From the NCBI GenBank assembly GCA_013288805.1, contig JABDBE010000011.1:1-64000 (forward strand): 64,000 bases of DNA. The letters run 5' to 3'. The notes under the pieces are model-generated. The model saw only the letters and a program-made list of their open reading frames with translations. It was not told the origin of the DNA and did not search any database. Positions within the stretch are counted from its first letter, which is position 1, and each line of letters starts with the position of its first letter. Source of the stretch: Acidobacteriota bacterium (GTDB taxonomy: Bacteria > Acidobacteriota > Terriglobia > Terriglobales > Acidobacteriaceae). Position numbers and translations under genes: made by a program. Shown here piece after piece: positions 60,524 to 62,890 of this stretch.

Positions 60524-60703
60524 GTGCCAAAGTTTTTGCGATTTATCCGTAACCTGCGACTGCCGAACTGCAGTATCTGCAATGAACGGGTGGAACTTGA
60601 AACCGCAAAGACCGATGAGGACGGGAAAGCTGTTCACGAAGACTGCTACGTTCAAAGGATGATACGGCTGAAGGAAATCGTCCCCCCGCCTAAAGCTTCG
60701 TAA
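60524..60703 (+). CDS. 59-residue Cys/His small protein (CxxC...HxxC)
   Basis: A very small gene starting at GTG 60524, preceded by GGGAGG, and ending at TAA 60703. The protein is basic at the N-terminus (MPKFLRFIRNLRL) and carries C16-x2-C19 (CSIC) and H38-x2-C41 (HEDC), a zinc-ribbon-like pattern with 18 residues between the pairs. The C-terminus is IVPPPKAS. No named family was recognised, but the arrangement resembles short zinc-binding domains. It is followed 112 bases later by the first CCHH paralog, suggesting a small cluster of metal-binding proteins. DNA, RNA or protein binding cannot be told apart. Confidence 0.65.
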   Translation: MPKFLRFIRNLRLPNCSICNERVELETAKTDEDGKAVHEDCYVQRMIRLKEIVPPPKAS

Positions 60704-60815
60704 TGCACGCAGGCCGCGTACGGAATACTCGCCAGGCGTACCGGTTAGACGCAGATTCCAGCCTTAGTAACTTTGGTTTGAAGCCATAGCGGAATAAAAG
60801 ACTAGACTTAGAGCT

Positions 60816-61013
60816 GTGAGACATTACTCCATCAAATTGATCAACGGCGTGACTACGTTCACGTGTCCACATTGCAAGCACTCCGTCACAATATTGAAGT
60901 TCAGCAGCGAACACGGGAGTCGCCGCACGCAAGCGGCTAGGGCAATGAACGAGCACGCCGCAGCCGTACATTACGGCACCATACCCGCTTCGCCCCTGCA
61001 TACGCGGGTGTAG
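60816..61013 (+). CDS. Small C-x2-C-x26-H-x4-H protein, paralog 1
   Basis: A 65-residue protein from GTG 60816. The core is FTCPHCKHSVTILKF followed by GSRRTQAARAMNEHAAAVH, giving C-x2-C-x26-H-x4-H. The same spacing and the residues H-S-V, F, G, R-T-Q-A-A, A-M, H and H recur in the gene at 61650, which is about the same length to the first Cys. The conserved spacing in two paralogs supports coding and a metal site. No ribosome-binding sequence is strong, so expression may be low or leaderless. It lies just before a stand-alone receiver gene. Confidence 0.6.
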   Translation: MRHYSIKLINGVTTFTCPHCKHSVTILKFSSEHGSRRTQAARAMNEHAAAVHYGTIPASPLHTRV

Positions 61014-61063
61014 CACGCCCGCTAAGAACGCGCAGATCAGCCACGAGGTTAACAGCGAGGAAA

Positions 61064-61468
61064 ATGAAAATACTTCTGATTGAAGACAGTAAATTCCAGC
61101 GGATTGCGAATGAACGAGCACTGGTCAAGGCTGGGTACAGTGTTATCCAAGCCGGGGACGGCGAAGAGGGCCTCCGTGTCGCTCGCAAGGACATTCCCGA
61201 TCTTATCCTGCTCGATATGATGTTGCCCAAAGTGTCGGGGCTCGATGTTCTTCGCGCTCTCAAAGCCGACGTGCTTGTAAAACACATTCCCGTGATCGTG
61301 TTGAGCGGACTTGGTCAAGGCAATGAGACCAAGCTCTTGAAAGAGGGCGCAGCGGCATTTGTGACGAAATCGGAGAAATCGCTGGAAAACAATTCATCAG
61401 CCCTGATTCAGACCGTCGAAAGCGTGCTAACCCAGAACAGGAGCATAGAGGCCACGGCGGCGCAATGA
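61064..61468 (+). CDS. Stand-alone receiver domain (CheY/Spo0F-like)
   Basis: A 134-residue single receiver domain without output. The acidic residues are in LLIEDSKF (E6, D7), the phospho-acceptor is in PDLILLDMMLPKVSG, and the switch residues are in VIVLSGLGQ (Ser) and FVTKSEKS (Lys). The C-terminal ETVLTQ-like tail is short. It lies between the two CCHH paralogs in the same direction. With the CHASE3 protein lacking a kinase domain nearby, the phosphate donor must be elsewhere. A role in a phosphorelay or a protein-protein switch is likely. Confidence 0.88.
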   Translation: MKILLIEDSKFQRIANERALVKAGYSVIQAGDGEEGLRVARKDIPDLILLDMMLPKVSGLDVLRALKADVLVKHIPVIVLSGLGQGNETKLLKEGAAAFVTKSEKSLENNSSALIQTVESVLTQNRSIEATAAQ

Positions 61469-61597
61469 AATACCCAACGCCTTCTGCTTGTCGCTGACTA
61501 AGATCTCAAATTCTCAATAGCAGCCCAAGACTGTTGCCCCATAAAACGGTCCTCCAGGAAGCCGGTTCGATATTTCTGTCTAAACTAAAGTAACTGG

Positions 61598-61617
61598 AAT
61601 GTGATGACAATCACATT
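61598..61617. promoter_or_regulatory. CRP/FNR-type palindrome upstream of paralog 2
   Basis: An exact inverted repeat of two 8-base arms (61598-61605 and 61610-61617) around a 4-base centre. It contains TGTGA-N6-TCACA, the classical CRP half-site arrangement. It lies about 33 bases before the ATG at 61650, a position suited to repression or to activation if the start site is upstream of the ATG by little. Confidence 0.5.
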
Positions 61618-61649
61618 GCGGGAGAGACGCAGCGGTTTATTCTGCCGCA

Positions 61650-61862
61650 ATGTACACGATCAACCGGGCCCCCAAAGATCAGCGTGGCGTAATCCTCAAC
61701 TGCAAGCTGTGTTCGCACTCGGTAAACGTCAACGAATTCAACGAAAAGCTGGGTTGCGCTCGCACGCAAGCCGCCCAAGCCATGTTGAAGCATGTGCACA
61801 ACCAGCACAGCAAAGGGCCGACCGGGAGACCTATGGCTCAGACCATGGAACGATGGTATTGA
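61650..61862 (+). CDS. Small C-x2-C-x26-H-x4-H protein, paralog 2
   Basis: A 70-residue protein from ATG 61650. The core LNCKLCSHSVNVNEF plus GCARTQAAQAMLKHVHNQH repeats the metal-site spacing of the gene at 60816 exactly. The N-terminus (MYTINRAPKDQRGV) is basic and polar, and the C-terminus has GPTGRPMAQTMERWY. A weak hairpin-like GCGG/CCGC pair lies right before the start, and a CRP-type palindrome lies upstream. A terminator follows 20 bases after the stop. Conservation of both copies argues for function; the ligand (metal, nucleic acid or protein) is unknown. Confidence 0.65.
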   Translation: MYTINRAPKDQRGVILNCKLCSHSVNVNEFNEKLGCARTQAAQAMLKHVHNQHSKGPTGRPMAQTMERWY

Positions 61863-61882
61863 GAGTTTGATGCAACCGAATC

Positions 61883-61918
61883 GACCCGGGGAGAACCTGC
61901 TCCGGGTCTTTTCGTTTT
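61883..61918 (+). terminator. Rho-independent terminator
   Basis: Stem GACCCGG (61883-61889) / CCGGGTC (61902-61908), extendable by weaker pairs, followed by TTTTCGTTTT. It ends the transcript of paralog 2. Confidence 0.8.
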
Positions 61919-61990
61919 GCATCCATTTGATGGGAATCGACGAGGCGATGCGCAGTCGCGCGTCAGGCCAGCGGCACTCGATAATGATTG

Positions 61991-62890
61991 CTAAGCCGCC
62001 CTTACATTACCGTTGGATGGTGGGCTGCCAACCAAATCCTGTCGGAGTACCTCCATTTGTGCCGCCGCTTCGTTCATCTGCTCAGCGTATTCGTGCCCCT
62101 GTCGCGGAAGAAAATCTCCGTAGTGCTCCAGCAACAACCGGGAATTCGTGTTGATGGCGATGATGTTGGAACGCGCCTGACCGGAAAGAGCAGAAGTGAG
62201 TTTCTCTAACTGCGAATCCCGCATGTCTAGCTCGTGTCCGCTCTGGGCAACTTCCTGCTCAAGCACTTGCGTATGGTATCGGATCAGTCCAAACAGACAC
62301 ACTGCGAGCAAAAGCAGAAGGGAATTAGAAATAATGGTTGCAGAAAATGCTGCCTTCAATGCAGCAGTCGTTTCTCCATCCAATCTCGCGAACGTGCTGC
62401 TCTCCGCCGAAGATAACGAAGATGCGATCCGCCGAATCTCATCCATGCAGTCCTTTCCTTCGTTTGTATCGACGAGCTTGAACGAGCGAAGACGATACCC
62501 TTGCTGGCGCAAACTAATAGAATGCTCCATCTCAGTCTGTTTTGATTCGGCCAAGGACTCCAACTGCGACTCCAGTGATCGTTCGCGCTGCGTCCGATTC
62601 GAGAGGCCTGCTCGAAGATCGACAAAATCCGTTTCGATCCTGCCCTTCGCATCAGTGTAGGGCTGCAAGTAAGCAGGATCCCCGGTTAACAAGAATCCGC
62701 GCTGACCTGTTTCCATATCGGTCAGGTCTTTCAAAACTCCCGAGAGTTTCGCTTGGATCGCGGAACTTTCAAGCGTGAGCGCCGCTGTTTTCCGCACCTG
62801 TTGAAGATGGTTGACCGCGAGGTACGCATTCCATGCAATGAAAGCGAGTAACGCGGGGACTCCGATTTGCAATGCGGCTTTACGAATCAT
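61991..62890 (-). CDS. CHASE3 membrane protein with a kinase-dead dimerisation domain
   Basis: A 299-residue inner-membrane protein. TM1 (about 8-26) and TM2 (about 188-206) flank a CHASE3 periplasmic domain with its hallmark METGQRGFLLTGDPAYLQPY. After TM2 comes a coiled coil and a region resembling a HisKA helical hairpin: LEKLTSALSGQARSNIIAIN, LLLEHYGDFLPRQGHEYAEQM and AAQMEVLRQDLV. The position normally holding the phospho-acceptor His (SHDLKAPL-type) reads SGQARSNI, and the protein ends before any ATPase domain. It therefore cannot autophosphorylate as written and may act as a dimerising input for another protein. It is co-oriented with a small gene 17 bases upstream. Confidence 0.8.
   Translation of the reverse strand: MIRKAALQIGVPALLAFIAWNAYLAVNHLQQVRKTAALTLESSAIQAKLSGVLKDLTDMETGQRGFLLTGDPAYLQPYTDAKGRIETDFVDLRAGLSNRTQRERSLESQLESLAESKQTEMEHSISLRQQGYRLRSFKLVDTNEGKDCMDEIRRIASSLSSAESSTFARLDGETTAALKAAFSATIISNSLLLLLAVCLFGLIRYHTQVLEQEVAQSGHELDMRDSQLEKLTSALSGQARSNIIAINTNSRLLLEHYGDFLPRQGHEYAEQMNEAAAQMEVLRQDLVGSPPSNGNVRAA

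Follow-up and report, generated by a model that had tools for sequence, protein, structure and literature searches.

Classical C2H2 zinc fingers fold as a strand-strand-helix unit in which a Cys pair precedes the helix and a His pair lies at its end, with ~12 residues between the two pairs, as summarized in the pattern C-x2-4-C-x12-H-x3-5-H (PF00096). Among small zinc proteins, Brz regulates adjacent genes and requires its Cys and His residues (PMC2253796), and the CPxCG-related proteins are defined as being <100 aa long and having two Cys/His pairs, one CPxCG-like, separated by 7-40 residues (PMC2253796, PMC6562870). With regard to transcription, a TANNNT hexamer ~12 bp 5' of the start codon is the published signature of leaderless bacterial genes, which account for 9.7-19.4% of the genes (mean 13.3%) in three acidobacterial genomes (PMC3160421).

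Small proteins are readily overlooked when genomes are annotated, and soil is rich in Acidobacteria, which are difficult to culture. The window, i.e., the whole 64,000-nucleotide stretch of acidobacterial DNA analyzed here, encodes two small proteins, P0001 and P0002, which share with Brz and the CPxCG-related proteins the size of <100 aa and a single Cys/His zinc motif (PMC2253796, PMC6562870). Their size, the distance between the pairs, and the CPHC of P0001 fit the CPxCG-related definition, whereas H-x4-H does not, with four residues between its ligands in place of the 2-3 found within the pairs of those proteins. By analogy, we favor the view that the family would resemble Brz in its mode of action while standing outside the Brz family.

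Two Old Paralogs around a Stand-Alone Receiver

The region of interest comprises four features:

60816..61013, + strand: P0001 gene, GTG start, 65 aa, single-domain, C17-x2-C20-x26-H47-x4-H52
61064..61468, + strand: stand-alone receiver gene, ATG start, 134 aa, Pfam Response_reg (PF00072) at E 4.6e-19
61650..61862, + strand: P0002 gene, ATG start, 70 aa, paralog of P0001, C18-x2-C21-x26-H48-x4-H53
61883..61908, + strand: intrinsic-terminator-like hairpin with T tail, directly 3' of P0002

The first-pass annotation had described two genes of 65 and 70 codons with C-x2-C-x26-H-x4-H in both, and their coordinates and reading are as claimed. The shared H-S-V, F, G, R-T-Q-A-A, and A-M that it placed in register are present in both translations (VRHYSIKLINGVTTFTCPHCKHSVTILKFSSEHGSRRTQAARAMNEHAAAVHYGTIPASPLHTRV for P0001 and MYTINRAPKDQRGVILNCKLCSHSVNVNEFNEKLGCARTQAAQAMLKHVHNQHSKGPTGRPMAQTMERWY for P0002), each of which has a net charge of +5. 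The lone receiver that it saw between them in the same direction is likewise there; this protein carries all of E7/D8, D51, S81, and K102, as receivers do, and a GAGG Shine-Dalgarno-like site lies 5' of its ATG. The equal spacing had been read as the sign of a real family kept by two independent genes. Other genomes agree with the first part of this claim, but the second does not stand: P0001 and P0002 align with each other (41% over 39 aa, E 9.4e-5) and, because they are paralogs, are not independent witnesses, so that independent support is supplied by the relatives in other genomes.

The family falls into five subgroups told apart by their N-termini, namely VK (core), VRYY-type, VRHY...NEH (P0001-like), MY (P0002-like), and MYR. 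In the tree, the MY and MYR genes split from all others at 100/100 and P0001 falls within the P0001-like group at 100/99; as P0001 and P0002 lie on opposite sides of the 100/100 split, the window pair is, by this tree, one of old paralogs. A recent tandem duplication of the two genes is ruled out by the same split. A P0002-like or MYR gene was found <=11 kb from 4/9 P0001-like genes, in three genera, against 0.05 expected under random placement, a figure that is indicative only, the 11 kb limit having been picked post hoc with the data already seen.

A Lineage-Restricted Family under Purifying Selection

With P0001 as the sole query, seven further genera of the taxonomic family yielded relatives (E 1e-10 to 1e-17), the best seven matches comprising one copy in six genomes and two copies in one. 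A nine-sequence profile extended the family to 64 of 398 genomes of this acidobacterial family, with a maximum of seven copies in one genome, although in ~10 of the 64 the matches lay only near E 0.001-0.01 and are probably due to chance. Nearly all of the positive genomes belong to genera g7 and g29, and the named matches are metagenome-assembled genomes labeled Terriglobales, Terriglobia, Acidobacteriaceae, Acidobacteria, or Candidatus Sulfotelmatobacter. When 396 phylum-wide genomes were searched with a 69-sequence profile, only two gave matches, namely the genome of the window and a second one from its taxonomic family.

No match above cut-off was obtained for the family in Pfam, NCBIfam, or PHROGs; Rfam gave none in the P0001-P0002 region, and the PDB sequence search returned nothing better than E 0.08. 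The nearest profiles fell short: Zn_ribbon_Brz (PF23454) scored 14.5 bits with P0001 against a Pfam cut-off of 27.9, and the best E values for CxxC_VVA0879 (NF041591) and phrog_3401 were 0.003 and 0.0017, NF041591 scoring below its cut-off and both printed alignments spanning the CxxC knuckle and some following residues, not the whole profile. We conclude that the P0001/P0002 family is real, lineage-restricted, and without a name in the libraries. Phage, plasmid, and viral collections yielded no match to the family, and such an origin was rejected on this basis.

The exact C-x2-C-x26-H-x4-H spacing with all four ligands is kept by 67 of 72 non-redundant members. Across 69 sequences, C17, C20, R37, A40, and A41 (apparently in P0001 numbering) are invariant, and Y4, H22, F29, G34, T38, Q39, H47, and H52 are >=90% conserved. 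In four of the five spacing exceptions, ligands or other conserved residues are gone, and these copies are apparently decaying paralogs. Copies lacking the ligands and keeping the conserved start were seen at L120:2994-3191 (+), L120:17730-17912 (+), L096:5004-5183 (+), and L097:5067-5276 (+). All five subgroups have median dN/dS values of 0.27-0.35, and a ratio of ~0.3 indicates that the family genes encode proteins; the mean net charge is positive in every subgroup. Thus, the first-pass annotation's idea of a real family that it could not name was borne out, with homologs outside the window's genome, retention of the four ligands, and purifying selection.

Predicted Fold and Metal Site

AlphaFold2 models, built on 20 sequences, exhibit three short strands and one long helix in both proteins, with the Cys pair preceding the third strand and the His pair ending the helix. 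For P0001, the strands span residues 5-9, 12-16, and 23-25 and the helix residues 36-51 (mean pLDDT 81.8); the P0002 model has the same order (mean pLDDT 73.5). The predicted fold is that of a C2H2-like strand-strand-helix finger: it shares with the classical finger the order of elements, the placement of the Cys and His pairs, and a hydrophobic residue (Met/Ile/Leu) three positions ahead of the first His. It differs in having 26 residues between the pairs and a 16-residue helix, and none of the 69 members matched zf-C2H2 (PF00096). Foldseek retrieved nothing at E <= 0.001, its best hit being the Kaiso C2H2 finger at a non-significant E of 0.65. From the ligands and the models together, we infer that the family proteins bind zinc at the Cys/His site.

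Predicted Leaderless Promoters with Candidate Upstream Activator Elements

Activators of class II occupy a position ~-41.5 relative to the transcription start. The promoter regions of the two window genes contain the following:

60768..60787, + strand: P0001-like upstream element TAACTTTGGTTTGAAGCCAT / TAACTTTNGTTNNNANTCAT, conserved in the subgroup, candidate activator site
60803..60808, + strand: -10-like hexamer TAGACT of P0001, 7 bases 5' of the GTG, predicted leaderless start
61600..61615, + strand: perfect CRP-like palindrome TGTGATgacaATCACA / TGTGATGACAATCACA, centered 42.5 bases 5' of the P0002 ATG
61638..61643, + strand: -10-like hexamer TATTCT of P0002, at -12 to -7 of the ATG, predicted leaderless start

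A TANNNT beginning 13 to 11 bases 5' of the start codon was found in 65 of 71 members. The remaining predicted genes of these loci, tested in the same way as controls, had it in 18 of 301 cases, a control rate of 6% that is probably too low given that the control starts come from a simple codon-usage gene caller. The hexamer was present in 20/20 VRYY-type, 24/24 core, 9/9 P0001-like, 7/12 P0002-like, and 5/6 MYR genes, which leaves six of the 71 members without it. From this prevalence we predict that the family genes give leaderless transcripts begun at the first codon. The same TANNNT ~12 bp upstream marks TA-led leaderless genes, known in Acidobacteria (PMC3160421); here, however, it recurs in almost all members of a single small-protein family and is joined by a conserved upstream element. 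The -10-like box at the start codon is an addition to the earlier observation.

Each subgroup has its own conserved element at about -60 to -35, and no -35 hexamer was conserved across the start-aligned members. A sigma-70 promoter with a -35 box was sought in the region of the window genes and none was found, for which reason we prefer an activator-dependent promoter. The TAACTTTNGTTNNNANTCAT element occurs with <=1 mismatch upstream of most P0001-like genes tested, with 0-1 other site per genome, and the stretch at 60768..60787 is probably an activator site.

The P0002 palindrome would stand at the class II activator position if transcription begins at the ATG. The next-best CRP-like sites in the window have two mismatches. 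With <=2 mismatches and a center at -41.5 to -43.5, the palindrome was detected in 9 of 18 P0002-like and MYR members, as opposed to 0/53 other members with enough flank and 0/399 control genes; a good palindrome is thus missing in half of the P0002-like and MYR members. A Crp-type regulator gene lies near seven family loci, one of them confirmed by Pfam. As in class II CRP/FNR-dependent promoters, TGTGA-N6-TCACA is located near -41.5 of the predicted start and there is no conserved -35 hexamer, whereas here the mRNA would be leaderless, and both start site and regulator are known by prediction. The leaderless and CRP-like features extend the earlier observation and make the family directly testable.

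A Putative Family of Single-Finger Regulators

We propose, at a probability of roughly 45%, that the family consists of single-finger regulators or co-regulators whose genes are turned on from leaderless promoters that require an activator. The C-x2-C knuckle and the H-x4-H at the end of the long helix are predicted to hold one zinc, and the invariant RTQAA at the helix start would presumably form a contact surface. An upstream activator, for P0002 a CRP-type protein bound near -42, would switch each gene on at a promoter without a visible -35 box, and translation would proceed from the leaderless mRNA. The small basic protein may then target nucleic acid or the transcription machinery and serve locally as a regulator or co-regulator, like haloarchaeal Brz, and a neighboring receiver might take part in the same response in some genomes, as a partner that is not obligatory. 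More tentative still is an extended version, in which C-x2-C-x26-H-x4-H would define a new C2H2-like subclass of lineage-specific single-finger transcription regulators that radiated in Terriglobales, kept their leaderless core promoters, acquired activator sites of their own, and became linked to phosphorylation in some receiver trios. Selection on the family is clear, its metal site is likely, its transcription start can be predicted, and, in the case of P0002, the proposed CRP-type switch can be tested; the family thereby provides a handle on the use of leaderless microproteins in acidobacterial signaling. Should the finger prove to bind DNA, it would represent a compact type that is new among bacterial fingers and unusual in its spacing.

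Linkage to Receivers and the Adaptor Alternative

The chief rival of the regulator reading, doubtful as we consider it, is a two-component adaptor, in which the finger would bind receivers or kinases in place of DNA and tune phosphotransfer like small connector proteins, dispersed paralogs being specialized for different signaling neighbors. The gene neighborhoods bear on it in both directions. Within 1.5 kb of 48 dispersed members there are 17 distinct receiver genes, against ~3.7 expected (~4.6-fold enrichment) from a background of 1475 domains in 16 genomes (about 88 Mb). In another genus (G327), the trio is kept in a different gene order: P0001-like and P0002-like genes are accompanied by a receiver that shares 80% identity with the one in the window and lies ~5 bp from the P0002-like gene; in a further genome (G105), a receiver 56% identical to the window's adjoins a P0001-like gene. 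These linkages favor an adaptor, but in the core, which is the largest subgroup, 0/24 members have a receiver within 1.5 kb, and five other orthologs of the window receiver (77-81% identical) have no detectable family gene within about 1.5 kb. The neighboring receivers are moreover of several kinds (lone, PAS-hybrid kinase, and receiver with an extra domain) and may just mark regulatory islands.

The first-pass annotation had suggested that the genes may form a compact phosphorylation- and metal-linked regulatory unit with the receiver, and had asked whether homologs sit beside receiver genes. They do so in the dispersed subfamilies and the G327 trio, where the linkage recurs, but not in the core or beside the five receivers lacking a family gene nearby, so that a fixed unit of this kind is not supported. 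The link between receiver and family genes is, in this partly supported form, recurrent and not obligatory. An obligatory receiver partner is ruled out by the same core members and orthologs. As a separate observation, the lone-receiver subfamily to which the window receiver belongs was found (E <= 1e-28) in 85 of 398 genomes of the taxonomic family, for the most part at a distance from the zinc-finger genes (L131-L139).

Other Alternatives and the Surroundings of the Family Genes

Compared with the single-finger regulator, it is unlikely that the proteins are stress-induced RNA- or ribosome-associated fingers that bind rRNA, mRNA, or RNA polymerase in a general way and have no preference for particular promoters. 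The single basic finger and the predicted leaderless expression would suit such a role, and zinc proteins of the ribosome or RNA polymerase figure among the weak fold matches over short stretches; however, confinement to one taxonomic family, presence in only 64/398 of its genomes, and up to seven copies are unlike a housekeeping factor of the ribosome or polymerase. We regard as very improbable a role of the protein in storing or passing on a metal, be it zinc or some other: such a function would fit a compact Cys2His2 site, and an FeS_assembly_P gene lies in the core neighborhood, but there is one structural-type site per protein, the invariant non-ligand RTQAA argues for a binding surface, and we noticed no gene for a metal transporter in the neighborhoods read. 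The least probable explanation is that the genes are mobile cargo, selfish or decaying, with no function for the host. It has the patchy distribution, the multiple copies, and the ligand-less copies of L096, L097, and L120 (two) on its side and is opposed by purifying selection, the conservation of the promoters, the synteny of the core copy at most loci of the core subgroup, and the lack of matches in the phage, plasmid, and viral collections.

The core members are mostly located 3' of a Peptidase_S58 gene, with FeS_assembly_P and AhpC-TSA genes near, and this gene order with Peptidase_S58 is conserved at L081, L103, L115, L119, and other core loci. In the window, a third small Cys/His protein of another type (60524-60703, + strand, 59 aa, C-x2-C ... 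H-x2-C) is encoded 5' of P0001; it has nine matches, itself included, in the window's incomplete genome and none above cut-off in Pfam or NCBIfam. Downstream, the gene at 61991-62890 (- strand) encodes a CHASE3 sensor domain for which Pfam gave no kinase or other output domain. The terminator-like stem 3' of P0002 is surrounded by an extended hairpin at 61869-61923 (+ strand); the 63-nt stretch here has a folding energy of -30.8 kcal/mol (z -5.0).
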